Positions 1,708 through 17,037 of a stretch of DNA of 22,316 nt are shown here, one piece after another. The stretch is from a virus. The number at the start of each line of letters is the position of its first letter. Position 1 is the first letter of the stretch. The notes beneath the pieces were generated by a model. The model ran no database searches and was not told the origin of the DNA. It saw nothing but the letters and a program-made list of their open reading frames with translations. The position numbers were made by a program, and so were the translations under genes. Where the stretch lies: IMG/VR virus record IMGVR_UViG_3300007734_000477, positions 1 through 22,316 of that record. One strand, written 5' to 3'.

Positions 1708-3525
1708 ATGCCTTACTACATAGACACAACAGACGATGTACTGTCAATTGCTGGATCTTCCAGCTTTGAGGGTGGTCAAGCTTCTGGAATCTCTCCAAGC
1801 TTAATTGGCAATAACCAAGCCAGCGATATTTATAATATGACAATCAGCCCGTCTGGAATCCTCCAGACAAGGCAAGGGATTGAGCAAGTATCTGCAAACG
1901 TATCAAGTGGATCAGGAATTCAAGGGATGCACTATTTTGATACGCCTGACATTGAGCGAATTGTTGTGGCGTGTAACGGAAAGTTATTCAATTCTACAAG
2001 TGCAACAAGCTTTGGAACTACCGCTGGAACCGTAACAAGCGGGGCTGTTAGCGTAAGTTTTTCACAGTTTAACAACAAGCTCTATTATACTGACGGGGCA
2101 AGCAATCTATCCTTTACTGATGGAACAAGTTATTACAGACAGGGAACAAGCGTTCTTTCTATTACAGTTACAAATGATGGAACAGGATATACATCAACAC
2201 CAACAGTAACAATTAGCGCGCCTAGCCTAACCTACGGAACAACAGCCACAGCGGTTGCAACAGTTGTGTCAAATAAGGTATCGGCCATTACCGTGACAAA
2301 CGCTGGTTCGGGATACACTTCAGCACCTACGGTTACAATTACTGGCGGGGGTGGATCTAGTGCGACAGCCACAGCGAGCGTTTCTGCTCTCGCGCCTTCT
2401 GGCCTTAGACTTGTTCGCCAGTTTACTAATCGCTTGTTTGCCGTAGGAACTGGAGCAAACCGAAACACGCTTTATGCGTCAGACATTCTTGATGCTGAAG
2501 TATGGAAAACAACCAATACAATTGTTGTCGGAGGCAATGACGGCGAAGACATTATTGCCATCCAGCCATTCTTTGACTTTGAATTGTTGGTTTTCAAGCC
2601 AAACAAGATTTACTTGGTTACTGTCGACCCCACAGCAACAACTGCTGCTGGCTGGACTGTAAGGTTGATTAACGACAAGATTGGATGTCAAGCCGCTGGG
2701 TCTGCAATCTTTACAAACAAAGATGTATTCTTTCTTTCTAATGATGGAATAAGAAGCGTAGTTAGGTCAGCAGCCGATGATTTCTACACAGTAGGCCCAA
2801 CCCTTACCGAGCAGGTCAAGAATGTAATAGCAAGAATAAATAGGGGCTATATTAGCTCTGCCAATGCAGCGTTCCACAATAACAGGTATTATCTGGCTCT
2901 TCCTCTGGACAACTCGACAACCTGCAATTATGTGCTTGTTTACAACACGCTGTTTGGATCGTTTGAGGGATTGTGGTCTATAGCCGCAAGTGCAATGACC
3001 AAGACCAACTTCTCTGGCGGGTACTCCACAAACTGCGTAAAGCTTGCGATTGGTAGTCCTACAGGGCAGGTTGGGCATCTTTACGATTATCTTGACCCAG
3101 ACCTACAGGGTGATGGCAATATCGAATTTAAGGACTACGGAACTTCCTATTCGTCCTACGTTGTTACCAAAGCTTACGATTTTGACGACAGGATTTCAAA
3201 AAAGTATGGGTCGCATTATGAGATGGAGTTTTATTATTCCACGGCTACTGGATGCACAATAGGGATGAAGCGGGAAACCGATTCTCAATATGTCACAATT
3301 GGGACAAATGTTGACACATCGACACCAGGAGGATTGACCCTGCCATTTACACTCCCAGCCACGCTTTCGGCTCAGACCTACAACTTTAGGGCTGATAGTC
3401 TTAGGTCTTATCAGAAGTGGCGTAATATGAAGTTCAAGATGGAAGCTCCAGCTAGGAAGCTTTCCATTAAGCAAATTATGCTTGCCGCAAACCCAGATAC
3501 CATTGAGGTGCAAAAGAATATATGA
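1708..3525 (+). CDS. Tail nozzle / DNA-stabilisation protein (T7 gp12 or P22 gp10-like beta-propeller)
   Basis: A 605-residue, almost all-beta protein. Its opening, with a segment reading SPSLIGNNQASDIYNMTISP and then GILQTRQGIEQVS, is the 'list of points, then trended baseline' pattern typical of P22 gp10-like and T7 gp12-like nozzle proteins. Propeller-blade phrases follow: FTNRLFAVG, ILDAEVW, PFFDFELLVFKPNKIYLVT, FLSNDGIRSV, NNRYYLALPL and YNTLFGSFEGLW. The role in these families is to close the portal channel and form the distal tail tube. Residues about 150-230 form an inserted repeat (annotated separately). AAAGGAAGG at 1696-1704 is a good ribosome binding site for ATG 1708. The stop overlaps the next start (ATGA). 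Confidence 0.75.
   Translation: MPYYIDTTDDVLSIAGSSSFEGGQASGISPSLIGNNQASDIYNMTISPSGILQTRQGIEQVSANVSSGSGIQGMHYFDTPDIERIVVACNGKLFNSTSATSFGTTAGTVTSGAVSVSFSQFNNKLYYTDGASNLSFTDGTSYYRQGTSVLSITVTNDGTGYTSTPTVTISAPSLTYGTTATAVATVVSNKVSAITVTNAGSGYTSAPTVTITGGGGSSATATASVSALAPSGLRLVRQFTNRLFAVGTGANRNTLYASDILDAEVWKTTNTIVVGGNDGEDIIAIQPFFDFELLVFKPNKIYLVTVDPTATTAAGWTVRLINDKIGCQAAGSAIFTNKDVFFLSNDGIRSVVRSAADDFYTVGPTLTEQVKNVIARINRGYISSANAAFHNNRYYLALPLDNSTTCNYVLVYNTLFGSFEGLWSIAASAMTKTNFSGGYSTNCVKLAIGSPTGQVGHLYDYLDPDLQGDGNIEFKDYGTSYSSYVVTKAYDFDDRISKKYGSHYEMEFYYSTATGCTIGMKRETDSQYVTIGTNVDTSTPGGLTLPFTLPATLSAQTYNFRADSLRSYQKWRNMKFKMEAPARKLSIKQIMLAANPDTIEVQKNI
2161..2394 (+). repeat. Two degenerate Thr/Ser/Gly-rich beta repeats inserted in the nozzle protein
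   Basis: Residues 152-169 read ITVTNDGTGYTSTPTVTI and residues 194-211 read ITVTNAGSGYTSAPTVTI, a 42-residue spacing, each followed by an Ala/Thr/Ser stretch. This GxGYTSxPTVTI unit recurs in many phage and bacterial surface proteins and probably forms small beta hairpins or an Ig-like appendage projecting from the propeller. Confidence 0.7.
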
Positions 3526-3890
3526 CAGCTGTTGAGTATATTGAGGAAAGTGGCGTTCCAGAGGCTATGTGGCCTAACCTGGCTGATTGGTTCGGATGGT
3601 TTGAGAAGCAGGGGATGGTCGGTATTGTTAGGGATGAGGATGGTATTGCTGGGGTGGCTCTGGCTAGGTGCGTAAAGGATGGGCAAAAGCCTGACCATTA
3701 TGTGCATAGCGAGGATGGTGAGAATGTGTTTGTTGATTTGACTATCTCCTCAAAAGGTGCTAAATCCTTAAGGTGCTTGCTGTTGTTGCTTTGGCAACGT
3801 TTTGGTCCTCGCAAGCGGATCACTTTTAATCGTTCTGGTAAACCAAGGAGTTACGACTATATGACATTTATGCGAAAGGCTAGGGTTTAA
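3522..3890 (+). CDS. Small GNAT-like virion protein in the T7 gp13 position
   Basis: A 122-residue protein directly after the nozzle gene and overlapping it (ATGA at 3522). Strand-turn-strand segments GMVGIVRDEDGIAGVALARC and ENVFVDLTIS are followed by helix-forming SLRCLLLLLWQRFG and a basic end (KRITFNRSGKPRSYDYMTF). This resembles a minimal GCN5-related N-acetyltransferase core, where the beta4 strand precedes the helix near acetyl-CoA. T7 gp13 has the same kind of fold and lies just after gp12, so synteny supports the analogy. A canonical Q/RxxGxG/A acetyl-CoA motif is not evident, so catalysis is doubtful and a structural or assembly role is equally likely. Confidence 0.45.
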   Translation: MTAVEYIEESGVPEAMWPNLADWFGWFEKQGMVGIVRDEDGIAGVALARCVKDGQKPDHYVHSEDGENVFVDLTISSKGAKSLRCLLLLLWQRFGPRKRITFNRSGKPRSYDYMTFMRKARV

Positions 3891-3894
3891 CGCC

Positions 3895-4356
3895 GTGGGT
3901 GGATCACCTTCTATCCCAGCACCACCTCCTCCGCCCGATCCACTTGAGGCGGCAAGGGCTAACGATATTTTCTATCGCTCATCGCTAGAAACATACATTC
4001 AAAAACAACCAGAAATTGCTGCCTTAGAGCAAAGCTTGCGTGAGAAGTATTCCCCCCGCCAGCGTGAACTGGAACGGCAAATGTCTGCGCTAGACTTACA
4101 GCGATCAGTGCAGGCTGGCTTGCAGGTTGAGCGCGAGCTTGGACCACAACGCTCGCTTGAGGCTATGCGCCGTCAGTTTGAGATGGCTCCAGAAGCTTTC
4201 GCAACCCAGCGTGGTTTAGGTCAGCAGGCAGCATTGCAGTTTGCTAGACTTTATGGACAATCGCCAATGGGTGCAGTACCGCAAAATGTACAACAATCTG
4301 CTGGAAAGCCTTTAGGTGATTACTTGGGTCAATCTCAAATGGGACAATTTATCTAA
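3895..4356 (+). CDS. Proline-rich internal virion / ejection protein, hypothetical
   Basis: A 153-residue protein starting at GTG 3895, five bases after the previous stop. The N-terminus carries SIPAPPPPPDP, then an amphipathic, Gln/Arg/Glu-rich helical body (PRQRELERQMSALDLQRSVQAGLQ). The C-terminal GQ-rich tail ends at a TAA that overlaps the next ATG (TAATG). Small proteins opening with Gly-Gly/Pro-rich runs are common among ejected proteins of podoviruses. Its helical pattern (L....R....G.G..A) resembles the C-terminal part of the next gene, so the two may be related parts of the gp14-like internal virion set. No catalytic motif is seen. Confidence 0.5.
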   Translation: MGGSPSIPAPPPPPDPLEAARANDIFYRSSLETYIQKQPEIAALEQSLREKYSPRQRELERQMSALDLQRSVQAGLQVERELGPQRSLEAMRRQFEMAPEAFATQRGLGQQAALQFARLYGQSPMGAVPQNVQQSAGKPLGDYLGQSQMGQFI

Positions 4357-6101
4357 TGAGTTCCTACAGAGGATTCGTAGAGAAAAGCACTGGTAGAATT
4401 ATAGACCTACCAAACCCTAGCGCATATTGGGGAAATGATATCCACAGACAATATTATGACTTTATGCTCAAGCAGGGACTTCCAAATCCAACAAAACCTG
4501 GGCGACCTTGGTATGATTGGAGTGGCGATTGGCTTGATAATTCAACTGCTAAATTTTTCGAATCAAAGGCTGAAGCCGAAAAGTATTCCAACTCTATCAA
4601 GGAAAATGCTGGTATTGCAGAACAAAACAGAATTGGAATTAATACAAATGCTGTAACTCCAGCAGAAAAATTGGAAAATTACGAAAAAGTTGCAAACGCA
4701 TATTCTTCCAATATAAAAAATAATAGCTTAAATGCACTACAAGAATCAGTTTACAATAAATACAAACAACAAAGCATAGTAAGCAATCCTCAAAATTTTA
4801 CAGATGCTGTAAACAATTATTTTGTAGAATTTTCAGAAGCAAAACTGCGCGGTGTTGAAAATATTTCTTCCGAACAAAAGAATAAACTATCTTCTTATTC
4901 AAGACAGCTAAAAGATTATTACTCAAAAGACTTATCACCAGAGAGTGCAAAATTAATACAATATGTTGACGATGTTCAATCGGCAATTAACTCAGTAGAC
5001 AATCAAAAACAACTTGTAGAAACACAAAAAGGCAGAGTTTCATCTCTCCGTGGAAAGGAGCAGGAAAACGCAAGAGCAAGGCTGGTTATTGAAGAGGATG
5101 CTTTATCTCGCTTAATCAATACAGCGAACCAGCAAGCTCCAGAGGTTATTAACTCACTCTCTAGGGCAGTACCATCAAACATAGCTAACATTGTTGCAAA
5201 GACTGACGAGCGAGTAGGCCAAGTTACCAGCGGTTTGTCTGCGCTATCTAGTGATAGAATTTTCAGCACTGGAGACATTGCGTATAAACTAAACTCTCAA
5301 GTTACAGACCAACAAATTATTGATGACATCAATAAGGCTAGGCTTGGTGAGTACAAAAAATTGTATGAACTTGGTCAAGCGACAACGGTTGATCTTCAAT
5401 CAAGAATTAAACAAGCCGAGGTAATGCTCCCAAGCCTAACTGGACAGCAAAAAGTTTCAGCCACAAAACAAATTGATGATCTAAAAACTCAGCTATCTCA
5501 AGTAACTAAAGATGCTTTGCAGGCTGAGAATCTTTATAAAAATTATACTGGAGTATCTGGAACACAAGCAAGCACAGCAATCTCTAAATTTAGAGAATCT
5601 TTGCGTCTTCCAGAGGAACGCACTTTAGCTCAAATTGATGAGATTGACCCCACAGTCGGCGCAACCGTCCGCGCTCTTGCCAAGCAGTACCAGACGATGG
5701 CCGAGACTCCGCTTGAGGCAACGACCAGCCCAGAGACAGAAGCCTTTAGGCGTGATGTTGAACAACGGATTGCTGGTCAGGTTGCGCTAGGTTCACAACT
5801 TGGTGCGGAAGAACAGAGGCAATATCAGCAGGCCGCAAGAGCCGCACAAACTGCCAGAGGAAATATCTTTGGAGTCGCTCCAGCCGTAGAGGAAGCAGTC
5901 ACAACTGGATTGGCTGGCGAGCAAAGGTTACAGGCTCGCCTTGGTGCAGCCCAAGGATTCTTGGCTTCTGGTCAAAGTATGTCAGACGCAATTGCGCGTG
6001 ACGTTGGATTGCGTAACGCACTTGAACAATCTCGCTTGGTGCTGCTCAAGGATTTATTGCAAGCGGTCCTACACTGTACAACCTCGCCTCACAGCGTCTA
6101 G
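4356..6101 (+). CDS. Internal virion protein, N-terminal 581 residues, truncated by a frameshift near 6035
   Basis: A mainly helical, Gln/Asn/Ala/Lys-rich protein. After an aromatic N-terminus (YRGF, AYWGNDIHRQYYDFM, RPWYDWSGDW) come long coiled-coil stretches (about 120-420). The Ala/Gln/Arg-rich C-terminal part (about 425 onward: PTVGATVRALAKQYQTMAE, EAFRRDVEQRIAGQ) resembles ejected virion proteins of podoviruses. The unit RLGAAQGFLASG at about 528-539 recurs 32 residues later, but there the DNA has CGCTTGG where the first copy has CGCCTTGG. The frame therefore changes and the protein runs into 20 or so unrelated residues and a stop at 6101. The natural product is probably about 678 residues, ending at 6391. 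Base composition shifts from AT-rich to more GC-rich around 5640. Confidence 0.7.
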   Translation: MSSYRGFVEKSTGRIIDLPNPSAYWGNDIHRQYYDFMLKQGLPNPTKPGRPWYDWSGDWLDNSTAKFFESKAEAEKYSNSIKENAGIAEQNRIGINTNAVTPAEKLENYEKVANAYSSNIKNNSLNALQESVYNKYKQQSIVSNPQNFTDAVNNYFVEFSEAKLRGVENISSEQKNKLSSYSRQLKDYYSKDLSPESAKLIQYVDDVQSAINSVDNQKQLVETQKGRVSSLRGKEQENARARLVIEEDALSRLINTANQQAPEVINSLSRAVPSNIANIVAKTDERVGQVTSGLSALSSDRIFSTGDIAYKLNSQVTDQQIIDDINKARLGEYKKLYELGQATTVDLQSRIKQAEVMLPSLTGQQKVSATKQIDDLKTQLSQVTKDALQAENLYKNYTGVSGTQASTAISKFRESLRLPEERTLAQIDEIDPTVGATVRALAKQYQTMAETPLEATTSPETEAFRRDVEQRIAGQVALGSQLGAEEQRQYQQAARAAQTARGNIFGVAPAVEEAVTTGLAGEQRLQARLGAAQGFLASGQSMSDAIARDVGLRNALEQSRLVLLKDLLQAVLHCTTSPHSV

Positions 6102-6115
6102 GTACGCAGCAGGGA

Positions 6116-6391
6116 TTGCTCAACAACTACCTCGCAGCCTCCCAGCCTCAAGCTACTGGAACATTCCAAGGCACTTCTTCAACCGCTAATCCGTATGCGT
6201 ATGTTAACCCCAACGCTGGGTTCGTTGGCGCGCAGAATGCGGCGAGCATTTATAATACGTTGGCTGATCTTCAAGCAAGTCAGTATGGTTCGCAGGTTGG
6301 GGCGTTGTCTAGGCAGGAAACTGGATCACAAGCATTTGGTAATATTGCTTCTGGTCTTGGTAATCTATTTAGCTTTAACAAGGCATTTTAA
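6116..6391 (+). CDS. C-terminal continuation of the frameshifted internal virion protein
   Basis: In the frame -1 to the upstream gene, the sequence is open from 6026 to the TAA at 6389-6391. Read from 6035 it gives RLGAAQGFIASGPTLYNLAS, then QRLGTQQGLLNNYL, which exactly continues the repeat seen upstream at 5937. A gene caller could only start it at TTG 6116. It has no ribosome binding site or good start of its own, so I treat it as the missing end of the 4356 gene and not as an independent gene. The segment is Ala/Gly/Ser/Asn-rich and ends GLGNLFSFNKAF. The break may be a real inactivating deletion or a sequence error. Confidence 0.65.
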   Translation: MLNNYLAASQPQATGTFQGTSSTANPYAYVNPNAGFVGAQNAASIYNTLADLQASQYGSQVGALSRQETGSQAFGNIASGLGNLFSFNKAF

Positions 6392-6414
6392 ACCACTATA
6401 ATTGGAGCAACAAT

Positions 6415-7041
6415 ATGGCAATGTTTAATTTCAATCTTGATGGGCAAAAAGAAGTTGCAAAACCAATGCGGTCTTATGTGGATATTGATGAAAACGGAAG
6501 ACCGAAGGCACGGATTTATGCTGATGAATATGAATCAGTAAAATCAAATCCAGACTTTCAACCATATCTTGCTGGTGCTGGCAGGAACATGGAAACAGCA
6601 CAAAGTGCTTTTGCTGATGAAATGATGGAAGCAAGGCTAGAAGCTGTTGAGAAAAGAATTAAAGCGAAAAGACAAGAAACAATTAAGGCTGAAACAGAAG
6701 CAAGAGAAGCTGCTGGAACTAGCAATGAATACCCAGGTATAGATATTTTAGGAAGAATGATTGGAAGTGAAACATTTGGCCAAAGAGCAACATCTCGCCA
6801 AGAAGAGCTAAAGAAATTGCTTGAAGAGCGAGCTGGATATATGGGTACTCCAGAAATTTCTGCTCCTATGCCAACAGAGCAAGCACCCGTATCTGAACCA
6901 GTAGCTCCAGTACAGCAGGCTTCACAAAAAAGGACTGTAAAGATTCGCAATCCAGATGGCAAGATTTTATCAGTACCAGTAGAAATGTGGAATAAGAACC
7001 CCAAGGGATATATCGAGCAAGGCTACCAAGTAGTGCCATAA
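6415..7041 (+). CDS. Hypothetical internal virion protein with central coiled coil and C-terminal KIRNPDG motif
   Basis: A 208-residue protein starting at ATG 6415 with GGAG at 6403-6406 upstream. Residues about 60-105 form a strongly charged Glu/Lys/Arg/Ala helix (MMEARLEAVEKRIKAKRQET). A Pro/Val/Glu/Gln linker (about 140-168) leads to a small C-terminal module, VKIRNPDGKILSVP followed by YIEQGYQVV. I associate this short module, (K/R)IRxPxGxxxxVP plus GYxxV, with internal or tail-associated proteins of podoviruses, where it is often appended to lytic or scaffold proteins. Its place between the frameshifted ejection protein and the giant one supports a virion role. No enzyme motif is seen. 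Confidence 0.5.
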   Translation: MAMFNFNLDGQKEVAKPMRSYVDIDENGRPKARIYADEYESVKSNPDFQPYLAGAGRNMETAQSAFADEMMEARLEAVEKRIKAKRQETIKAETEAREAAGTSNEYPGIDILGRMIGSETFGQRATSRQEELKKLLEERAGYMGTPEISAPMPTEQAPVSEPVAPVQQASQKRTVKIRNPDGKILSVPVEMWNKNPKGYIEQGYQVVP

Positions 7042-7047
7042 AACCAT

Positions 7048-10000
7048 ATGGCAGCCTCGAATGAGTTGGATAGATATTTCGCTCAAGAAGATGGGGGCGA
7101 TCAAGCACAAGCAACAACGCCACAAGTTGACGAGTTAAGCTCATACTTTCAAGAGCGTCAGCAAGATCAAACACAACCAACGCAAGAATCAGATTTAGAC
7201 AAGTATTTTAAGGAGCAAGAAGCGGATAGGCCATCGCGCGCTGGTGCCATTGGCAGAGCAATAGCAGAAGAGTTTTTGCCAACTACTGTTGCTGGCCTTA
7301 CCGCTAGAGGGTTAGGCACACTACCAGTACCAGCAGTACCGAAGTTTCTGCTTGGAGCAACAGGCGCAATTCTTTCCTACGGCGCGGCTGGTAGGTTGCA
7401 AGAACAAGCCGCAAGGATGATTGCTGGAGATAAAGCAGTCGAGGAATTTAAGGCTCAAAGACAGCGCGATATAGCCGAGTATCCAGTATCTACGTTTGCT
7501 GCATCAGCCGCAACACCCACCGCTGGAGGAATCGCTGCCCTTGGAAGAAGGGGATTAACGGCAGCAGGGCAAATTGTTCGTGGTGCCTTGACAAAGGCTG
7601 AGACTGTTGCTCCGAGAGTTGAGGAAGCCGTTGCGCCTAAAGTTGCTGGAGAGGTTGCCGAACAATTGCCAGTGCAACAAGAATTACCATTGGGTGGAGT
7701 TGCCAAAACAAGCGAAGATATTGCCAAGGAAAGAGCGCAATTGATAGCTAATGTGGAGGCGCAGGCGGAACCAGGGCAAAAAATAAGCAAGTTTGCGGAA
7801 AGACTAATAGCTTCTGAGAGTACGTCAGATGATATGGCTAAAGCGATTGCCGACAATAGGGCATTGTATAATACTTTTTCGCCCAAGGGTATTGCAGAAA
7901 AATTACGGAAACTTTCGCCTCAACAAGTAAATGTATTTGCCCAAGCAGACGATTTGGTTGGCAAGGTTGCAAAACAAATCAATATGAATAAATCGTTTGA
8001 TCTTAACGATATACAAGCAGGTAAAGCCCAGTTTCTTGAACTTAAGAAAGGATACACAAATTACGGACAACTCTTAAATGTTGCAAAGCTTGCTGTCACA
8101 AATCCGTTTCAATACGCATTCACCTTAGAGAGAACGCTCGAAGCCGCCGCAAGGGGATACGCAACAAAGGGAGAAAAGGCAAAGCAAGCTGCTGATGTGG
8201 CAAAGCAACTTACTCCAGAGCTAGAAAAGAAGGCTATGACATTATTTAAGAACAAGCAGAACGCAGAGGACGCGATGCGCGAGGCTTATACAAAAGCAAG
8301 AACTGATTTTTCAAAAGAAGCAGATGTGGTTGCCAAGCAACTAGAGGACAAGGCTTTGCTGGCAACCGCAAAGTTGGCTGAATTTGAAGGAGATTTACTA
8401 ACAAAGGAATTGGGTGTGCAACTTTCAGATCATATTAGGGGCAATCTTTTAACAACGCTATCCCAAGCGGCAAACATAATGGGCAATACAGTCAATATGC
8501 CAATTCGGGCCGCAACTAGGCAGGTGGCATCGCTGTTAGATCAAATTGAAAGAATCATAGTAAGACCAGTTGCCACAAGAATACCTGGAACAAAGGGGGC
8601 TGCGGGAAATTATCTAGCAGAACAAAAGCAGTTTATGTCTCCATTGGGGCGAGGCACACTGGAAAGGTTTATTGAGGTTGGCAAGGGTGGTGGCAGGGGG
8701 TTAAAGGAAGGACTAGTTGGGTTGGTAAAAGGCATATCTCCAGAGCGTCAATTAGCTGGAGAAAGCATACAAGGATCTAGACCCATTAGATCCTTGAGGC
8801 GAGCTTTTACTGGCGAAGGATTGGCCGAGCCGATTGCCGAGGGCATGGCGGGTACTGCGGCAAAGGCAATGGATCGAATAAGACTTCTTGCGGAGGGTAC
8901 GCTTGGAATTTCCCCTGAAGTTAATTTTAGACTCCTGCAACTTGGCGATGCGCCTCCACTAAGAATGGCTCAAGCTAGACTGCTCACCGAAGCTAGGCAA
9001 TTAGAAGGGTTAAAGGGCAAGGCGTTGCAAAGGGCGGTAAGATACCCAACACAAGAGGAGGTTGATAAGGTTGCGTCCGAAACCCTTGAAGCCGTATATC
9101 AGCAAGACACAAAGTTATCTAGGGGCGTAAAGTATTTAACAGAATTAGCCCCAAAGTATTTAGGCAAAACACCACTCATAGGAAAGCCACTAGCAGGGGC
9201 AGCCAGAATAGCCACAACTGCTGTCCTCCCATACCAAAAAACACCAACTAATATAGTAGACGAGATTCTACAATACTCAATTCCAGAGTATTCTTTCATA
9301 CGGGGTCTTGCCGAACAAGGGCAAGGCAACTTCAGGGAAGCAAAACTACACTTTGCAAAATCTATTGTTGGCTACGCAATAGGCAATGTGGCAGACATAT
9401 TGTCTAGGGCTGGCGTAATAACAGACGAAATGCCGAAATCAGATAAGGCACGGGACATACAATTCCAAGCCGCCCCATCCAGAATGATAAACATTGATGG
9501 CTCAGAAAGGTTTTTGAAAACTGGATCTAGGCAAGAGATGGAGCCTGGAGATTCTTTGAGGTCGCTTGAAAAGCTTGGAGTCGTTGGAGCAATAATGTCA
9601 ACGCGCCACGCGGCCAACCAAGCAACTGAAGGCGGCACTGGATCTATCGGCGAGACGTGGGGTGCAACCCTTCCACAAACCCTAAAATTTGCGTTTCAAC
9701 AAAGTTTCTTGCGCAACATGAATAGTCTTCTTGGAGCTGTATCTAGGGGTGAAGCAAAGGATGTGGATGGGTGGCTTGCAAATTACTACAGCGCGTTGTC
9801 GGCAGTAGTATTGCCTAATCAACTAACTGCGGTCTCAAGATATTTAAGCGAAAATATGCCAGACAAGATTCAAGTTAAGGACATAGAGGGTGGCGATTTT
9901 GCAACCAAGTCCTACAACATATTCAAGGAAGTGGTCAAAAGGAAGTGGCCTGGAAGTGCTGGAGATTTACCTTCAAAAATAAACGTATGGGGCGAACCAG

Positions 10001-10419
10001 TGCCTCAAACGCCAGAAGGCGTTGATCCATTTATATATAATTTCATAGATCCAACTAGACCAAGAAAAGTCACCTATGATGATGTGACTCTTGCTGTCTA
10101 TGATTTGTATAAAAAGACTGGCAAAACTGACGGCATACCACAAGTGCCAGATCGAGACTTGCAAGTATTCAAAAGAAGAACTGGTCAGAGAGCAAGATTT
10201 AGGCTCGACCCATTGCTTTATGAGGAATACGCAAGTGCGGTTGGAAAGGCAAATAGGCAAGTTGCGGAACAACTTTTAGGTGATAAAAGATTTAGAAGGC
10301 TTATTCCAGAAGAACAAGTCAAAACGCTGTCTAACGCATACAATAAGGCCAGTAAGACAGCGAGAGAAAACTTCATCAGAAAGAACCAAAGAAGCATAGA
10401 GTTTGGACAGGAGTTATAA
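7048..10419 (+). CDS. Very large internal virion (ejection) protein, T7 gp16-position analogue
   Basis: A 1123-residue, largely helical protein and the longest gene in the window. Three copies of a short acidic-aromatic motif open it: LDRYF (7-11), ELSSYF (29-34) and DLDKYF (49-54), separated by Gln/Thr/Asp linkers. An Ala/Gly-rich hydrophobic stretch (about 66-126, including AVPKFLLGATGAILSYGAAG) could interact with membrane. The rest is Ala/Lys/Glu helical with no catalytic motif that I can identify. The muramidase activity that T7 gp16 carries at its N-terminus is here in the next gene. ATG 7048 has only a weak ribosome binding site, six bases after the previous stop. Identification rests on size, composition and position. 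Confidence 0.6.
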   Translation: MAASNELDRYFAQEDGGDQAQATTPQVDELSSYFQERQQDQTQPTQESDLDKYFKEQEADRPSRAGAIGRAIAEEFLPTTVAGLTARGLGTLPVPAVPKFLLGATGAILSYGAAGRLQEQAARMIAGDKAVEEFKAQRQRDIAEYPVSTFAASAATPTAGGIAALGRRGLTAAGQIVRGALTKAETVAPRVEEAVAPKVAGEVAEQLPVQQELPLGGVAKTSEDIAKERAQLIANVEAQAEPGQKISKFAERLIASESTSDDMAKAIADNRALYNTFSPKGIAEKLRKLSPQQVNVFAQADDLVGKVAKQINMNKSFDLNDIQAGKAQFLELKKGYTNYGQLLNVAKLAVTNPFQYAFTLERTLEAAARGYATKGEKAKQAADVAKQLTPELEKKAMTLFKNKQNAEDAMREAYTKARTDFSKEADVVAKQLEDKALLATAKLAEFEGDLLTKELGVQLSDHIRGNLLTTLSQAANIMGNTVNMPIRAATRQVASLLDQIERIIVRPVATRIPGTKGAAGNYLAEQKQFMSPLGRGTLERFIEVGKGGGRGLKEGLVGLVKGISPERQLAGESIQGSRPIRSLRRAFTGEGLAEPIAEGMAGTAAKAMDRIRLLAEGTLGISPEVNFRLLQLGDAPPLRMAQARLLTEARQLEGLKGKALQRAVRYPTQEEVDKVASETLEAVYQQDTKLSRGVKYLTELAPKYLGKTPLIGKPLAGAARIATTAVLPYQKTPTNIVDEILQYSIPEYSFIRGLAEQGQGNFREAKLHFAKSIVGYAIGNVADILSRAGVITDEMPKSDKARDIQFQAAPSRMINIDGSERFLKTGSRQEMEPGDSLRSLEKLGVVGAIMSTRHAANQATEGGTGSIGETWGATLPQTLKFAFQQSFLRNMNSLLGAVSRGEAKDVDGWLANYYSALSAVVLPNQLTAVSRYLSENMPDKIQVKDIEGGDFATKSYNIFKEVVKRKWPGSAGDLPSKINVWGEPVPQTPEGVDPFIYNFIDPTRPRKVTYDDVTLAVYDLYKKTGKTDGIPQVPDRDLQVFKRRTGQRARFRLDPLLYEEYASAVGKANRQVAEQLLGDKRFRRLIPEEQVKTLSNAYNKASKTARENFIRKNQRSIEFGQEL
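8770..8796. repeat. Perfect 10-bp inverted repeat inside the large virion gene
   Basis: The arms are CAAGGATCTA (8770-8779) and TAGATCCTTG (8787-8796) with a 7-base loop GACCCAT. It lies within the coding sequence, so it may be incidental, an RNA stability element or a binding site. It has no following T-run, so it is not a typical terminator. Confidence 0.5.
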
Positions 10420-10420
10420 T

Positions 10421-11557
10421 ATGGCAAAATTCAACGTAAACCCAAGCAAAGATGTTCTCACACAACAAATGCGAGAATCAATGAATAGGATTTTAGAGGG
10501 AGGAAATATGGAAAAAGATATGACTAATCGTTCTATTGCCGAGGATCTAACCAACAAGCCATACGCTCCAGTTCCAGAAGATATTCGTGGAGAATCTTCT
10601 CGCCTATTGCTTGAGCCTGCTGGTGCTGGCGAAGTTGGTACTACAGTAGGTGGCGCGCCAAATACTAGGGCAATGATGGATGCAGATTTGAGGCAACAAA
10701 TAGAGGGTAAGTTTAATGAGGGTGCTGGCGGTGTGCCAGCCAGCGCAATGCCATACCAAGGACCAACTACGCCAAGACCAGTACAGCCTCGCGGAACCCG
10801 CGCATCAGTTGAGCCGCTTACTCAATGGGTTGCTAATAACACGATAAATTGGGAGGCAAGGCGAGACAAGCAAGGCAATATAGCGGTATATGACATACCT
10901 TCTGGCGATTATGGTGGCACAAGAGAGGTTGCTGGAATTACTGATAAGTATCATCCAGAAGCCTTTAAGCGCATAGAGGCATTGCCTGCAAGCCAGAGAG
11001 AGAAGGCGAGCGCAGACTATGTCTTGGATTATACGGCTCCAATTGCAAATGTAGTTCCAGATCCTCTAAAGGCGCACGCTGTTGATCTTGGTTTTAATCG
11101 TGGTGCTGGCGGGTACACCACATTGATTCAGCGAGGGCTGAATGCCTTGGGCGTGCCAGTGCGGGTTGACGGAGCTTTTGGTAAAAAAACATTGGCAGCT
11201 ATGGAACAAGTAGATCCAGTCCAGTTAATCAATGCAACTGAAGATGCTTACCTCCAGAGGGAACGGGCAATGGCAGAGGCCGACCCAAACAGAGCGAAGC
11301 TATATCAAGGCATAGTAAATCGTTCTAATAAAAGAAGGCAATCCGCAACAATGTATGCCAAGGCCAACTTGCCATATACTGGACCATTAGAGCCAGAGGT
11401 TAAGCCTCCACCCAAAGAGAATGTGGATGAATCTTCTCCAAGATACGCAATGGCAAACCTACCTTATACTGGTCCACTAGAGCCAGAAGTTAAGCCTCCA
11501 CGCAAGGAGGAGGTTGAAGGGTATGAGCCAAGACCTCTTGGGCTTGGGCTGAGTTAG
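10421..11557 (+). CDS. Virion-associated muramidase, GH108-like with peptidoglycan-binding segment
   Basis: A 378-residue protein. I chose ATG 10421 because AGGAG at 10409-10413 is correctly spaced. After a disordered N-terminal 130 residues, the segment 139-260 reads like a glycoside hydrolase 108 / secretion-activator domain: NWEARRD (candidate catalytic Glu145), VYDIPSGDYGGTREVAGITD (157-176), HAVDLGFNRGAGGYTTLIQR (219-238) and VDGAFGKKTL (249-258). The last is the usual 'DGxxGxxT' end of GH108/PG_binding_3. The expected role is local peptidoglycan cleavage during DNA entry, because it closes the virion-protein run; a role in lysis cannot be excluded. The C-terminus has a 30-residue tandem repeat. 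Its stop overlaps the convergent gene's stop by three bases. Confidence 0.7.
   Translation: MAKFNVNPSKDVLTQQMRESMNRILEGGNMEKDMTNRSIAEDLTNKPYAPVPEDIRGESSRLLLEPAGAGEVGTTVGGAPNTRAMMDADLRQQIEGKFNEGAGGVPASAMPYQGPTTPRPVQPRGTRASVEPLTQWVANNTINWEARRDKQGNIAVYDIPSGDYGGTREVAGITDKYHPEAFKRIEALPASQREKASADYVLDYTAPIANVVPDPLKAHAVDLGFNRGAGGYTTLIQRGLNALGVPVRVDGAFGKKTLAAMEQVDPVQLINATEDAYLQRERAMAEADPNRAKLYQGIVNRSNKRRQSATMYAKANLPYTGPLEPEVKPPPKENVDESSPRYAMANLPYTGPLEPEVKPPRKEEVEGYEPRPLGLGLS
11354..11533 (+). repeat. Two tandem 90-bp (30-residue) repeats at the lysozyme C-terminus
   Basis: Residues 312-341 and 342-371 share NLPYTGPLEPEVKPP at the same place in each 30-residue unit, giving units at 11354-11443 and 11444-11533. 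The DNA copies differ at many third positions (for example CTTGCCATAT against CCTACCTTAT), so the duplication is old and the protein sequence has been kept. It is a Pro-rich extended linker or anchor. Confidence 0.85.
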
Positions 11558-11916
11558 TCGGATATTTTCGGCTTCCAAGTAATCCAAGAACCCTTTGTTC
11601 CATCAAAATAAGAATTACCATTCTTCCAAGAGGAGGAGCTTCCATAAAAAAAGCTACCCGATTTAACGACTAGCTTTCCATTGCCAAATACTTGCTTCCC
11701 ATTTGCACCATAATAACCACCAGATGTCGCAAAACCCCTGCCATTGGAATAAATGAATTTACCATCTGATGTTACTGCGGTGTTTCTCCCCGTAATGATT
11801 GCTGATTTGCCTAATACGCCTCCAGCAAAATCACCAATACCAATTTCATCCTCATCTTCCGCCATCACCGATGCCATCAGAATCGCCGTTAGTGTTATCA
11901 TTGTTATTGCTTTCAT
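11554..11916 (-). CDS. Small secreted glycine/serine-rich protein on the opposite strand; candidate moron
   Basis: A 120-residue protein. I chose the ATG at 11916-11914 because it gives a textbook signal peptide: MKAITMITLTAILMASVMA with cleavage after the final Ala (residue 19), followed by acidic EDEDE. The mature part repeats Gly/Asn/Ser/aromatic units such as DGKFIYSNGRGF, GGYYG, NGKQVFGNGKLVV and GSFFYGSSSSW, suggesting a beta-solenoid-like surface or periplasmic protein. It is the only credible minus-strand gene. It converges on the lysozyme with overlapping stops and diverges from the nuclease gene with only 37 bases between. That isolation suggests its own promoter and expression apart from the lytic operon, as for lysogenic-conversion or moron genes. 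The family is not recognised. A longer start at 11955 is possible but would bury the signal peptide. Confidence 0.7.
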   Translation of the reverse strand: MKAITMITLTAILMASVMAEDEDEIGIGDFAGGVLGKSAIITGRNTAVTSDGKFIYSNGRGFATSGGYYGANGKQVFGNGKLVVKSGSFFYGSSSSWKNGNSYFDGTKGSWITWKPKISD

Positions 11917-11953
11917 GTAAAAAGTCTCTAGCACAAACCGAAAGCCGTCAAGC

Positions 11954-12511
11954 ATGAAACTATCATCACGCCAAGTTGGAGCAGTTGGGGTAGCTCGCGT
12001 AACAGGAGCGTTGCTGCGGTGCGGATACAACGTGCTTACGCCCTACGAGGATTTTGCTGGGTACGATGTGGTGGCTGAGAAGGATGGGAAGTTCTACCGC
12101 ATCCAAGTTAAGACCGCACAGACCGTAGAACCTGGGCGCACAAAGTACCGCTTCACTACTTCTACTGGCAATGGCTTTAATATCCCCAAGCGAGCAATCA
12201 GTGGTGTGGATTATGTTGCCTGCTGGGGCATGAACGATGACCTATTCTGGCTATTGCCAATTGCCAAGTGTAAAAGCATAACAACTAAACTTTGCCCCTC
12301 GACTGGCCAGCTGGCGGGTATTTCAGAATTTGTGAACGAGAAAGAGGCGTGGGCTAAGTTTGAGGCTGGGTTGAAGGACGCAGAATCCTTTGATGAGGCC
12401 GTGGCTTGGGTCAAGAAGAACAAGAAGATCGTGGAAAAACTGACCATGATGGCAATGATTAGAAGATTTAATGAGGATATTAGCCACGCTAATAAGACTT
12501 GGCGGAACTAA
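11954..12511 (+). CDS. PD-(D/E)XK-type endonuclease-like protein (possible homing endonuclease or resolvase relative)
   Basis: A 185-residue protein. The N-terminal helix GAVGVARVTGALLRCGYNVL is followed by AGYDVVAEKDGKFYRIQVKT, in which Asp38 and the Gln51-Val-Lys53 triad give the D...(E/Q)xK core of the PD-(D/E)XK fold. This 'GYDvv...iQVKT' arrangement is typical of small group-I-intron-endonuclease/resolvase-like families (PDDEXK_11 type) in which Gln replaces the Glu. Strand and aromatic segments follow (VDYVACWG, LFWLLPI), then a charged helical tail (AVAWVKKNKKIVEKL). It starts the recombination block and diverges from the minus-strand gene. It could process Holliday junctions, defend the phage against competing DNA, or be a selfish nuclease; the sequence does not decide. 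Confidence 0.65.
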   Translation: MKLSSRQVGAVGVARVTGALLRCGYNVLTPYEDFAGYDVVAEKDGKFYRIQVKTAQTVEPGRTKYRFTTSTGNGFNIPKRAISGVDYVACWGMNDDLFWLLPIAKCKSITTKLCPSTGQLAGISEFVNEKEAWAKFEAGLKDAESFDEAVAWVKKNKKIVEKLTMMAMIRRFNEDISHANKTWRN

Positions 12512-12534
12512 TTAGCACTCGACCTTGGGGTGGG

Positions 12535-12554
12535 TGGTTGGCTAAACCCAACCA
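12535..12554 (+). promoter_or_regulatory. Hairpin abutting a start codon (possible translational operator)
   Basis: TGGTTGG (12535-12541) pairs perfectly with CCAACCA (12548-12554) around the loop CTAAAC. The right arm ends at the base before ATG 12555. The only Shine-Dalgarno-like stretch (GGGGTGGG, about 12527-12534) lies just before the stem, so folding would either mask the start or bring the ribosome site close to it. Confidence 0.5.
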
Positions 12555-13001
12555 ATGGGCAAAATCAATAGTAGGGCAAAGGGTGCAGCGGGTGAGCGTG
12601 AGTTAGCAAATTATCTACGCGAGCAGGGCTGGCAGAAGGCCAGACGCACCCAGCAATACGCAGGCAATCCAGAGGGTGGTAGCGGAGATGTAGTCTGCGA
12701 GAACTTTCCTTTTCACATCGAAGGCAAGCGTTGCCAAGCACTCAAACCCGAAGAGTGGATGGAACAGTCCAGGCGGGATTGTCCAGCAGGCAAGATACCA
12801 GCGGTATTTTTTAGGCGTAATGGGCGCAAAGAGTGGCTGGTCATATTGACCGCAGATAGCGTGTGCGAATTAGCTCGACAGATTGCACCCGCCAATGTGA
12901 CTATCGAGTATGCAAAGACCGCAACCATTGCCCAAGGCTACTACGTTAAGTCACCAGCCTTTGACGAACTTACCCCAACAACAACAAACCCAAATAAATA
13001 A
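12555..13001 (+). CDS. PD-(D/E)XK nuclease, Holliday-junction-resolvase-like
   Basis: A 148-residue protein. Its start SRAKGAAGERELANYLREQG supplies the conserved helix Glu (Glu14). GGSGDVVCENFPFHIEGKR then supplies Asp45 and Glu56-Gly-Lys58, the full E...D...ExK active site of the Hjc/phage resolvase-like branch. AVFFRRNGRKEWLVIL matches the later strand pair of these nucleases. Phages that make concatemeric DNA need such an enzyme to trim branches before packaging. It lies between another nuclease and an SSB-like gene, in a recombination block. A hairpin touches its ATG. The stop is followed at once by the ribosome site of the next gene. Confidence 0.75.
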   Translation: MGKINSRAKGAAGERELANYLREQGWQKARRTQQYAGNPEGGSGDVVCENFPFHIEGKRCQALKPEEWMEQSRRDCPAGKIPAVFFRRNGRKEWLVILTADSVCELARQIAPANVTIEYAKTATIAQGYYVKSPAFDELTPTTTNPNK

Positions 13002-15022: not shown

Positions 15023-15174
15023 AGTTTGTTTTGTCATGGATACTTTATCACATTGGAGACATCATCAGCCTAACGCTTATGCGCTGGGGGTATGGGTACG
15101 GATTCTACAACAAGGTGATGCTTTTATCTTCTGATCTGGATGAACACGGCAAAATATGGAAGGACGTAAAATGA
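15019..15174 (+). CDS. Small membrane-associated hypothetical protein
   Basis: A 51-residue protein; ATG 15019 overlaps the previous TGA and its own TGA overlaps ATG 15171. It has a hydrophobic start (KFVLSWILYHIGDIISLTLM) and a tail with GYGYGFYNKVMLLSSDLD, then GKIW. I recall short phage proteins with the pattern IGDxxS...R.....YxxYNxLMLxSxDLD, function unknown. One membrane-associated helix is likely. Confidence 0.6.
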   Translation: MKFVLSWILYHIGDIISLTLMRWGYGYGFYNKVMLLSSDLDEHGKIWKDVK

Positions 15175-15836
15175 AGCAAGCATTAGTAACTCAATCGTTC
15201 GGTGATGACTGGAAGAAGATTATTGATCTAACTAGGCCACGCATGGAGGCTTACTGCAAGCGTCACAGCGTTGACTTCATTCTAATCGACAAGCCTCTTA
15301 CTCACCCAGCTCAATACTCCAAGTCTGCGATTGGAAACATTATGGCAACGAAGGGATACGAGCAGGTTGCATTCGTTGACGCTGATGTTTTGATTGCAAA
15401 CGATTGCCCAAACCTAGGGGAAGACGCTGGCGTGTTCTGCGCCTTTGACGAGGGAGCTTATCTGGACCGCAAGCCTGATATGGTAAAGCTGGCGGGTGCT
15501 TTCGGAGGAGTGATCGAGCCTAAGTTCTATGTCAACACTGGCGTGTTCGTAGTTCATACCAAGGCCGTTGGTATCCTATCCATGCCCCCAATTGGCCTTC
15601 ACCCAAACCACTTTGCCGAGCAGACTTGGTTAAACGTGATGGCGCACCTGTGGAACATTCCGCTGACCGAACTTGACCCGTCCTTCAATTGTATGACCAG
15701 CGTTGAGTCGCACTTTGGTTTGGACCGCTACAAGGACGCGATGATTATTCATTACGCTGGGCAATCAAATGATCTGGTTAAGTTATCTAACCAGATCCGA
15801 GCTGACGAAGCGAAGCTGGTGGAGTTGGGTCGGTGA
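15171..15836 (+). CDS. GT-A-fold glycosyltransferase (GT8-like)
   Basis: A 221-residue protein; ATG 15171 is chosen for its ATGA overlap. The Rossmann-like start ALVTQSFGDDW is followed by QVAFVDADVLI, where Asp70-Ala-Asp72 is the metal-binding DxD motif of nucleotide-sugar transferases. Later, FYVNTGVFVVHTKA and HFAEQTWLNVM fit the GT8-like acceptor and 'DQ' segments, and MIIHYAGQ fits the C-terminal metal-ligand His. It should transfer a sugar from a UDP- or similar donor. The acceptor could be modified DNA, host surface glycan or protein. It shares a coupled operon with a 2OG oxygenase, a cytosine methyltransferase and a second glycosyltransferase, which is why DNA modification is worth testing. 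Confidence 0.75.
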   Translation: MKQALVTQSFGDDWKKIIDLTRPRMEAYCKRHSVDFILIDKPLTHPAQYSKSAIGNIMATKGYEQVAFVDADVLIANDCPNLGEDAGVFCAFDEGAYLDRKPDMVKLAGAFGGVIEPKFYVNTGVFVVHTKAVGILSMPPIGLHPNHFAEQTWLNVMAHLWNIPLTELDPSFNCMTSVESHFGLDRYKDAMIIHYAGQSNDLVKLSNQIRADEAKLVELGR

Positions 15837-16153
15837 GGTCCACGCAGTTATGTCGCGGTGATTACGATGATAGGTTGCAGCAGTTGGCTGGGGAGGTTGC
15901 ACTCCAGGCTATCCGCGACCTGCGGATGCTACGCAAGCGAGGGATGGTTAAGGGTATGAAGATTATTAAGGATCACCAAGGAGTGCCACTCAACGATGCC
16001 TTGGAGTACAAAAACTCGCACGAGGTACAGAAGCTACTGCGTGACTTTAAGACTGGCGTTGTCTCTTGGTGGTGCAGAGCAAGCGGTGTTGCAATTGATA
16101 ATCGCACGCTACTGAGGAAGCTAAAGGAAAACGATTATGTTCTGCCTACTTGA
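15833..16153 (+). CDS. Hypothetical basic protein
   Basis: A 106-residue protein beginning at GTG 15833, overlapping the previous stop (GTGA). The first half is helical and basic (VALQAIRDLRMLRKRGMVKG). A second helical section has YKNSHEVQKLLRDFKTGV, with VSWWCRASG between helices. The next gene starts 17 bases before its end. The helical-basic content would suit nucleic-acid binding, but no domain is recognised. Confidence 0.55.
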   Translation: MRSTQLCRGDYDDRLQQLAGEVALQAIRDLRMLRKRGMVKGMKIIKDHQGVPLNDALEYKNSHEVQKLLRDFKTGVVSWWCRASGVAIDNRTLLRKLKENDYVLPT

Positions 16154-16283
16154 TCTTGCTGGAGTTGTTTGGGCAATCGGTTGGTTTGTGCTTTACAGTT
16201 CAATCACTTTGTCGGCAATCTATTGTGCGTTGTACATCATATTAAAACTGATTGATTACATAAGAAAGGAACTGGATCTATGA
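16137..16283 (+). CDS. Small membrane protein with one transmembrane segment
   Basis: A 48-residue protein from ATG 16137, overlapping the upstream gene by 17 bases and the next start by ATGA. Residues 4-40 are strongly hydrophobic (LLDLAGVVWAIGWFVLYSSI, then LSAIYCALYIIL), followed by a charged tail KLIDYIRKELDL. Size and layout (one long or two short membrane helices plus a charged tail) would suit a holin-like or membrane-anchor protein. No family is recognised. Confidence 0.55.
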   Translation: MFCLLDLAGVVWAIGWFVLYSSITLSAIYCALYIILKLIDYIRKELDL

Positions 16284-16477
16284 AAAAGAAAAGAAACAAG
16301 ATAACGCTGGTTAAAACTACAGAGGAAAAAGCCGTAAGGGTTATGATTGATATTGACGATGATCTTTACGAGGCACTTGCAAAGGCTGGACGTCATCACT
16401 TGGCTAAAGACAAGATGGCTTGCTTTGAGTATGCGTTAAACAAAGCATTGTTGGAACTCTGCGAGGAACTGAAATGA
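16280..16477 (+). CDS. Ribbon-helix-helix-like small protein (possible DNA-binding regulator)
   Basis: A 65-residue protein with a very basic start (MKKKRNK), then a strand AVRVMIDIDDDLYEALA and two helices (LYEALAKAGRHHL, CFEYALNKALLELCEEL). The pattern of a single alternating hydrophobic strand, DDDLYEAL, and a second helix is that of Arc/CopG-type ribbon-helix-helix regulators. It lies at both ends in ATGA overlaps, so it may be a phage regulator of its own operon. The usual Gly-x-S/T-x-S/N turn of RHH proteins is not obvious, hence moderate confidence. Confidence 0.5.
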   Translation: MKKKRNKITLVKTTEEKAVRVMIDIDDDLYEALAKAGRHHLAKDKMACFEYALNKALLELCEELK

Positions 16478-17037
16478 TCGAGTTTAAGCAGAAGGTTTTA
16501 ACGGCAGCGGTAGATCGGTATGTCTTAACCAAGACGCAGTGCGAGATGCTACGCCAAGATGCTGAAGTGATCGGGATGAAGCGTGCGACTGTGATGAAGA
16601 AGGATGGCACTACTCGCAGGTCGTTTGCTAGAACTTGTACATCCTGCTGGATACCTTACGCAAAGCATAATAACTGGATCTATAATATAATGCGGGAGCT
16701 TACCGATTCCATTAACGCAGAACATTGGAGGTTTGATATTACTGGTGTGCAACAGTTGCAGATACTCAAGTATAATCCACTCCAGCAGTTTTGGTGGCAT
16801 TGGGATACGTTTACTGGATCGGACCGCAAGTTGACTGCGGTGGTAAACCTATCCGCGCCAGAGGAGTATATCGGAGGCGGTTTGCAAGTTAAGGCTGACT
16901 TGGACAATGCCAAGTTTATCCGCGAGCAGGGGGCGGGTTGTTGGTTCCCGTCTTACATCGAACATCGTGCGCGCGCACCTATCTTTGGAACGCGCTGGGT
17001 GTTGGTGGCTTGGTTTACGGGACCAGCTTGGCGATGA
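16474..17037 (+). CDS. 2-oxoglutarate/Fe(II)-dependent oxygenase (prolyl-4-hydroxylase-like)
   Basis: A 187-residue protein with a full double-stranded beta-helix active-site set. HWDTF gives His109-x-Asp111, SYIEHRA gives His164, and FGTRWVLVAWF gives Arg174, the 2-oxoglutarate anchor ten residues on. Between them, KLTAVVNLS and EYIGGGLQV are the typical core strands and GGGL turn of P4H/PKHD enzymes. Such enzymes hydroxylate a substrate carbon using O2, 2-oxoglutarate and iron. P4H-like genes are known in many marine and freshwater phages, mostly of unknown target. Here it is flanked by glycosyltransferase and methyltransferase genes in one coupled operon. The N-terminal 50 residues are helical and Cys/Lys-containing. 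Confidence 0.85.
   Translation: MIEFKQKVLTAAVDRYVLTKTQCEMLRQDAEVIGMKRATVMKKDGTTRRSFARTCTSCWIPYAKHNNWIYNIMRELTDSINAEHWRFDITGVQQLQILKYNPLQQFWWHWDTFTGSDRKLTAVVNLSAPEEYIGGGLQVKADLDNAKFIREQGAGCWFPSYIEHRARAPIFGTRWVLVAWFTGPAWR

Follow-up and report, generated by a model that had tools for sequence, protein, structure and literature searches.

A hypervariable, predicted exported protein with exchangeable mature domains between the structural and recombination blocks of a phage group

A core gene between two modules

The virus record IMGVR_UViG_3300007734_000477 of IMG/VR carries, between its structural and its recombination genes, a small minus-strand gene for a predicted exported protein. The whole stretch of DNA analysed, called the window here, covers positions 1 to 22,316 of that record (22,316 nucleotides). 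In the relatives sampled, this gene is a core gene in a constant place, and sequence comparisons indicate that the part encoding its mature domain is exchanged between phages, the breakpoints lying where the signal peptide ends and at the stop codon of a lysozyme-like gene. The gene and its surroundings are composed as follows.

11554-11916, minus strand: gene for the exported protein, type T2 allele, 120 amino acids (supported by the open reading frame, homologues and substitution rates)
11860-11916, minus strand: signal-peptide (leader) codons 1-19, MKAI-type, going with the PDDEXK side, with conserved synonymous sites
11557-11859, minus strand: hypervariable mature domain, predicted to form an N-terminal helix and short beta strands with tight turns
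11554-11557: 4-bp overlap of two convergent stop codons, the downstream edge of the exchanged cassette
10403-11557, plus strand: lysozyme/endolysin-like protein with a PG_binding_3 domain (PF09374, phrog_315), the convergent partner
7048-10419, plus strand: 1123-residue protein, presumed from its position to be an ejection (inner virion) protein
6415-7041, plus strand: 208-residue protein, part of the same exchanged block as the lysozyme-like gene
11917-11953: 37-bp intergenic region between divergent start codons
11954-12511, plus strand: PD-(D/E)XK nuclease-family (PDDEXK) gene (PF11645, phrog_5018), the divergent neighbour
12555-13001, plus strand: RusA-like Holliday-junction resolvase (phrog_244, PF24608), with which the recombination block begins

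The open reading frame (ORF) of the exported protein has 120 codons, and its signal peptide was read by eye as MKAITMITLTAILMASVMA, with a Lys in the n-region, a hydrophobic stretch and V-M-A before the likely cut between VMA and EDED (the mature part beginning EDEDE); at the level of such a reading, the signal peptide of the original prediction is borne out. No lipobox Cys stands at the cut in the window sequence or in the homologues of the first search described below. Only the leader stands out in the hydropathy profile of the flagged homologue, another homologue not being flagged, and the window's exported gene does not appear in that hydropathy listing because its longest-start form overlaps the PDDEXK gene. 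The mature part, of 101 residues, is rich in Gly, Ser and aromatic residues and has no Cys in the window, and the gene has a G+C content of 0.41 compared with 0.47 for the window.

The gene had been placed at the boundary of two modules, and this holds. The lysozyme-like gene, which starts with TTG at 10403 (profile searches used a translation from 10409, not a start codon), is preceded by the 1123-residue protein in the ejection position and by tail genes, to which longer relatives add podovirus-like portal/adaptor, capsid and terminase genes; PDDEXK opens a block of recombination and replication genes that includes the RusA-like resolvase, an exonuclease and a primase/helicase. The 1123-residue protein is presumed to be an ejection protein from its position and from its counterpart in L198, which matches the virion structural family phrog_22602 and belongs to a cluster without detectable similarity to the window's protein. 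The gene had also been described as lying opposite to everything else; within the window, indeed, no other minus-strand gene is convincing, but further small opposite-strand ORFs occur near the terminase in two longer relatives. A consensus scan of 11300-12600 found no promoter of the sigma-70 type, the only type sought, and no terminator, which neither shows nor excludes transcription of its own.

Relatives were collected from IMG/VR in three ways. The exported protein as query gave 36 confirmed loci, of which 10 are 85-93% and 26 are 35-45% identical to it; since this search could favour the leader, a second one used the PDDEXK protein only (the best 80 of 184 loci being analysed), and a third used the mature domain only (58 loci). 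The three sets share contigs, so their counts are not additive. The ATG, the leader and the frame are kept in 36 of 36 first-search loci, so that homologues retain the signal peptide, and the mature parts of these loci fall into very different groups. Among the best 80 PDDEXK-anchored loci, a divergent ORF lies 36-38 nucleotides from PDDEXK in all 78 that are readable, the two other contigs ending less than 20 nucleotides after the start of the ATG, and each of these ORFs encodes a leader and a mature domain of this kind as far as its sequence reaches. The stop codon overlaps that of the convergent gene by 4 bp in 59 of the 74 complete copies and abuts it in 13, while the remaining two contigs end within 200 nucleotides; all 72 adjoining convergent genes match a lysozyme-like reference by blastp. 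Approached from the mature domain, PDDEXK is upstream in 57 of 58 loci (the 58th contig ends there) and a lysozyme-like match downstream in 53 of 58 (the other five contigs end).

An antisense or chance ORF is ruled out by this conservation (36/36 and 78/78) together with a ratio of nonsynonymous to synonymous substitution rates (dN/dS) of 0.14 in the window's type. A moron in the usual sense, an accessory gene that comes and goes, is not supported, given the presence of the gene in every readable one of the best 80 PDDEXK-anchored loci and its position beside PDDEXK in the mature-domain loci. The host benefit suggested with it finds no support either: a search of cellular genomes with the mature-domain alignment of types T5, T7 and T8 (defined below) gave 55 pattern matches and no confirmed relative, in a scan that was limited to two short peptide patterns and weak against distant relatives, and a host-acquired gene was rejected on the same 0 of 55. 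No integrase was found among the scanned proteins of two long relatives, covering part of each. Query P0001 had no match in phage or plasmid records, and query L098 none in phage records.

The family had not been recognised from the sequence, and it matches no profile at E≤1 in Pfam, PHROGs, NCBIfam or PADLOC, whether the window protein or its mature part is used; relatives of the window protein gave only scattered weak profile matches (best E 0.0055), and the best PDB profile match (E 0.075) is read as chance. Among the titles listed in literature searches, none concerned such a protein family, which is not proof of absence.

Exchange of the mature domain

Mature domains, cut after residue 20 in all sequences, were typed by single linkage at 55% identity. 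From 110 mature sequences (some contigs represented twice), 65 unique ones and 11 types were obtained; the typing omitted L009 and all loci in which the contig ends inside the ORF, and ten loci of the mature-domain search were typed later by best match. Representatives of the types are 11-48% identical, in single fixed alignments in which global identities of 11-20% are at background level.

When the window was compared by blastn with the 26 divergent loci, 25 of them became similar at 11845-11855, where the signal peptide ends, and one at 11828; from this breakpoint the similarity extends into PDDEXK and further at 80-94%. Among 69 loci with both flanks, there are 96 pairs of different type in which both flanks are more than 80% identical, and the ten closest of these combine flank identities of 92-97% with mature-DNA identities of 46-59%. 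For example, L041 (T9) and L061 (T3) agree at 95% towards PDDEXK, at 91% over the leader and at 97% towards the lysozyme, and their mature DNA is 46% identical, with a shuffled control for the same pair giving 44% (standard deviation 3). The reverse arrangement is found in L035 and L036, whose mature domains are 97% identical beside lysozymes of 69% and ejection-position proteins of 18% identity (background). Between L014, L024 or L026 and L033 or L035, and between L033 and L035, lysozymes are 93-99% and mature domains 25-42% identical. In the L062 class, leader and mature part are replaced together. No second, silent copy of an allele was found in the 177 records with a match, of 201, most of them partial contigs; the alleles thus appear to come from other phages and not from a silent store. 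An exchange of larger size was also observed: L021 matches the window at 97% over 2192-6360, belongs to another lineage over 6360-11855, and is 88% identical again after that, so that the 208-residue gene, the ejection-position protein, the lysozyme-like gene and the mature domain form a clean multi-gene module exchange.

The leader follows the PDDEXK side. Its MKAI type is common to 61 of 74 complete PDDEXK-anchored copies, but T4 mature domains stand behind MKAI-, MKTII- and MKTIQ-type leaders (L168, L178, L190), T5 domains behind MKAI and MKTIQ leaders (L145-L149), and T3-like domains behind MKTIQ (L193, L194), the types in these cases being assigned by best match. Over 1891 pairs of 62 sequences, synonymous divergence (dS) is 0.12 in the MKAI-type leader and 0.59 in the first 115 codons of PDDEXK. 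The leader DNA as an essential regulatory element was considered and rejected, given that in L062-like loci an entirely different leader stands next to intergenic DNA that is almost unchanged. Since this class does without MKAI-type leader DNA, the favoured explanation is that the low dS would reflect homogenisation by repeated recombination through the leader.

Within types, the mature domain is under purifying selection, with dN/dS of 0.13-0.20 in the eight types tested. In six of these eight, mature dS is below PDDEXK dS for the same pairs (T0, 0.155 versus 0.516; T2, 0.287 versus 0.745; T8, marginal), and it is above PDDEXK dS in T1 and T3, each of which has two subtypes. The low dN/dS and a dS mostly below that of PDDEXK suggest that the alleles are constrained and in many cases of more recent origin than the phage backbones around them.

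AlphaFold2 models were made for the window's mature domain (43 sequences) and for the T5 representative L098 (24 sequences). The former reached a predicted local distance difference test (pLDDT) score of 86 and a predicted template modelling (pTM) score of 0.80, its five models ranging from 49 to 86; the latter reached 91.7 and 0.85, with all five models near 90. Both models have a short N-terminal helix and 11 or 12 short strands, and an invariant Val lies on or borders this helix, in many types within FxGGVY. A beta-solenoid had been expected, and after the helix the predicted fold is all-beta. The turns in the L098 model, by contrast, comprise two residues, at G-N, G-D and P-T before G, which we read as typical of hairpins, and the weak structural matches include OspA, Rhs, CPAP G-box and lipocalin-like sheets, which we take to be antiparallel. 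On these two grounds an antiparallel beta-meander is favoured over a solenoid, without being settled. A 14-residue period is clear throughout the L098 model and only in the second half of the window's model. The NGK/DGK-aromatic units pointed out earlier are present (DGKFIY, NGKQVF, NGKLVV, NGNSYF) but limited to the window's type, and the repeat unit of the L098 model is a 14-residue pair of strands and not this motif. Foldseek gave no match at E≤0.001 in the PDB for either model or in BFVD for the L098 model, the one searched there; BFVD contributed A0A6J5Q382, an uncharacterised phage protein of 68 residues (43 columns, root-mean-square deviation (rmsd) 2.1, probability 0.98, E 0.30). The best match by VIA-align was the designed protein 9lx4 (Z 5.0, rmsd 2.8 over 90 residues; Z 4.4, rmsd 3.4 over 86).

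Associations of the types and possible functions

Of the three distances compared with that of the mature domain in 50 dereplicated loci, the one for the ejection-position protein shows the strongest correlation (rho 0.66), ahead of those for the lysozyme (0.29) and PDDEXK (0.18). The correlation with the ejection-position protein persists given the lysozyme (partial rho 0.615, p 0.001), whereas that with the lysozyme (-0.03, p 0.77) and that with PDDEXK (0.06, p 0.08) vanish given the ejection-position protein; as the ejection-position gene is farther off than the lysozyme gene, distance between genes alone does not give this order. The type is shared in 149 of 181 locus pairs with lysozymes at least 90% and ejection-position proteins at least 80% identical, in 154 of 211 and 16 of 21 pairs of the mixed classes, and in 70 of 1732 pairs below both limits. 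The alleles follow the structural block overall, and do not do so inside its largest multi-allele cluster. Two proteins of this block vary in their own ways: the ejection-position protein ranges from about 690 to about 1590 residues (L002-L117) and has a mosaic structure even between neighbours whose lysozymes are almost the same, and the 605-residue tail protein (window 1708-3525) exists in relatives in two forms, about 45% and 60-99% identical, residues ~142-226 matching many tail, baseplate and virion families and perhaps being a mobile inserted domain.

Wholesale exchange of the mature domain, a constant tag and purifying selection within types look like the signature of a specificity determinant facing a variable target. 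The explanation preferred here, tentatively and by analogy with known exclusion proteins, is a periplasmic superinfection-exclusion factor acting at DNA entry. The core phage protein would be exported through Sec to the periplasm, or to the cell surface, and we infer that this happens early in infection; there it would keep the DNA of phages arriving later from entering the same cell. The likeliest target would be the entry machinery of incoming related phages, namely their ejection proteins and/or lysozyme-like protein. The leader would serve as a constant delivery tag and the mature beta-hairpin domain as the recognition part, whose diversity would be kept by selection and swapped through homologous recombination in the flanks. 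It is also possible, though we hold it with less confidence, that these phages possess a polymorphic system in which a constant Sec leader is combined with interchangeable beta-hairpin domains, each of which would have an exclusion or counter-exclusion specificity of its own, in a serotype-like manner and with recombination anchored in the leader and the lysozyme gene.

Several points weigh against exclusion at DNA entry. The periplasm is assumed. Only 31 of 70 loci have an ejection-position protein with detectable similarity to that of the window (clusters B0, B5 and B7; none in B1-B4 and B6), and the distances of this protein saturate, so that the partial correlation largely reflects cluster membership and shared ancestry, and lineage structure remains. 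In cluster B1 (19 loci, six types), no segment of the ejection-position protein predicts the type well (area under the curve 0.32-0.70, mostly 0.5-0.6). Types T3, T4, T5 and T7 adjoin lysozymes at least 90% identical, and a strict one-to-one partner was not seen. The 605-residue tail protein does not follow type either, T0, T1, T2, T4, T5, T7 and T8 each occurring with both the ~45% form and a form of at least 60% identity (34 of 35 records with a match), nor does the tail fibre in a visual comparison of the pairs listed. The mature domain and the lysozyme carry net charges of opposite sign in 8 of 11 types, the exceptions being T7, T8 and T9, a pattern that does not convince. In P22, moreover, two SieA types 24% identical are reported not to differ in target specificity, so that sequence types need not be specificities (PMC10883804). 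As for the tail fibre as a driver, this candidate was set aside, because the most similar fibres occur in pairs of the same type (L120/L123, L132/L133) and of different types (L122/L129, L135/L136).

The exclusion reading has to be weighed against four others. An unlikely one, though the best of these, is an envelope- or receptor-directed factor that would bind a variable host surface or periplasmic component (a receptor, a polymer or a periplasmic defence), blocking adsorption or conditioning the host, as Llp does for FhuA, with a diversity that follows host strains and not the virion of the phage itself. It agrees with a protein that is predicted to be exported, is hypervariable and is exchanged, and with a type that is independent of the lysozyme given the ejection position and, within B1, of the ejection-position protein; T5 Llp is described as a small, periplasmic-facing exclusion protein (PMC9586334). 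On the other hand, a receptor blocker might be expected to follow the tail protein or the fibre, the lipobox of Llp and Cor is missing, and the overall association with the structural block is left unexplained.

A lysis factor is less probable still. Such a protein would act in the periplasm with the lysozyme-like gene in the last step of lysis, in outer-membrane disruption or endolysin control, and the constant tail-to-tail position (72 of 74 complete copies) of a core gene speaks for it, as does the lack of a noticeable spanin-like pair among the hydrophobic-stretch ORFs of two long relatives by simple hydropathy. The gene nevertheless lies on the strand opposite to the late block, the protein has no hydrophobic segment besides the leader and is predicted all-beta, and nearly identical lysozymes adjoin the divergent mature domains of L014, L024, L026, L033 and L035. 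Small hydrophobic ORFs elsewhere could be holin-type genes, and the lysozyme-like protein itself could be an endolysin or a virion enzyme.

The diversity might also be carried along without selection, the locus being the joint at which early and late blocks recombine and the mature domain marking the late module acquired. Although the association with the block overall and the departure of L021 from the window between 6360 and 11855 would follow from this, it is improbable: the type changes while both flanks, lysozyme side included, remain 92-97% identical in the ten closest pairs, 32 of the 181 pairs with similar blocks differ in type, and L035 and L036 share a mature domain despite their different late genes. 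Least probable of all is a secreted effector or bacteriocin-like protein acting on neighbouring or host cells, or another host benefit as in the moron reading, for while a constant leader with a polymorphic mature domain is a layout like that of polymorphic effectors and the small secreted domain and lower G+C content would fit, the neighbours are lysozyme-like and PDDEXK genes with no immunity-like partner, no relatives turned up in plasmids or in the limited cellular scan, no integrase was seen in the scanned parts of the two long relatives, and the gene is core and not accessory.

If superinfection exclusion at DNA entry is correct, exclusion types would be readable from sequence and could be followed in nature, in a phage group with at least 184 relatives in IMG/VR, whereas competition between phages within cells is known mainly from laboratory phages. 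If the function is not exclusion, the protein still represents a hypervariable phage family, unmatched in the libraries searched, with a defined unit of exchange.

Host, other genes and comparison with known systems

The terminase of L199 (1945-3372) matched 241 phage records in INPHARED, the three listed first being Akkermansia phages (34-37%), a weak pointer to a host among Verrucomicrobiota; in a terminase scan of cellular genome contigs, 0 of 32 pattern matches were confirmed. The window also encodes a C-5 cytosine methyltransferase (PF00145, 18254-19157) that appears split over two frames, likewise in L005 and L068, while L196 has a continuous ORF of 330 residues; the split may reflect decay, a programmed frameshift or an assembly error. 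Candidates of holin type, both kept in relatives, are a protein of 48-50 residues with two hydrophobic stretches (window 16137-16283, plus strand) and a protein of 74-75 residues whose N-terminal half is charged and whose single hydrophobic stretch is C-terminal (joined contig G012, 30978-31202). Metabolic genes of the early block (window 15156-15836, 16474-17034 and 19157-20263) comprise a weakly GT8-like and a GT9-like glycosyltransferase and a 2OG-Fe(II) oxygenase. In L199, a methyltransferase-like gene (6223-6750, phrog_2675) directly follows the portal-like gene inside the head module. Small opposite-strand ORFs lie near the terminase side in longer relatives (L198, 18617-19744; L199, 350-862; L196, 3664-5367), and six of them, when scanned, gave no Pfam match at E≤0.01.

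The exported protein was compared with four known systems. On the features tested, membership in the Spackle, SieA and Llp/Cor families fails, though the protein may still work like one of them. Like phage morons, for example HK97 gp15, it is encoded by an isolated opposite-strand gene between modules, with a predicted export signal and lower G+C content; unlike them, it is present in all readable anchored relatives and has no host homologues in the limited scan, and the consensus scan gave no sigma-70-type promoter and no terminator. It shares with T5 Llp and Cor, small exported phage exclusion proteins, its size and its predicted export, Llp being encoded next to a phage entry gene (PMC9586334), but both of these are lipoproteins and no lipobox is present here.

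T4 Spackle (gp61.3) acts early, in the periplasm, as an inhibitor of the virion lysozyme (PMC7677548, PMC7650644). Both proteins are small, have a signal peptide (cleaved in Spackle, read by eye here) and a link to a lysozyme, the mature parts having 75 and about 100 residues (PMC7677548, PMC7650644). Spackle, however, is a compact alpha-helical bundle with a disulphide, in contrast to the predicted beta fold (pLDDT 86) and the Cys-free mature domain of the window, and it inhibits gp5 and not T4L, whereas the types described here vary beside nearly identical lysozymes.

SieA of the short-tailed phage P22 blocks DNA injection by superinfecting phages, has three types less than 30% identical, and is escaped through mutations in ejection proteins (PMC10883804). 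Its three inner-membrane transmembrane segments have no counterpart in the exported protein, in which only the leader is hydrophobic, and a predicted signal peptide followed by a beta domain, with eleven types swapped behind a constant leader, is unlike SieA. Both systems nevertheless combine a short-tailed phage, a small envelope-located protein (by prediction here), several types less than 30% identical and highly variable ejection proteins (PMC10883804). Should exclusion be confirmed, this phage group would offer a test of coevolution between entry and exclusion proteins, a question that the P22 SieA study left open (PMC10883804).

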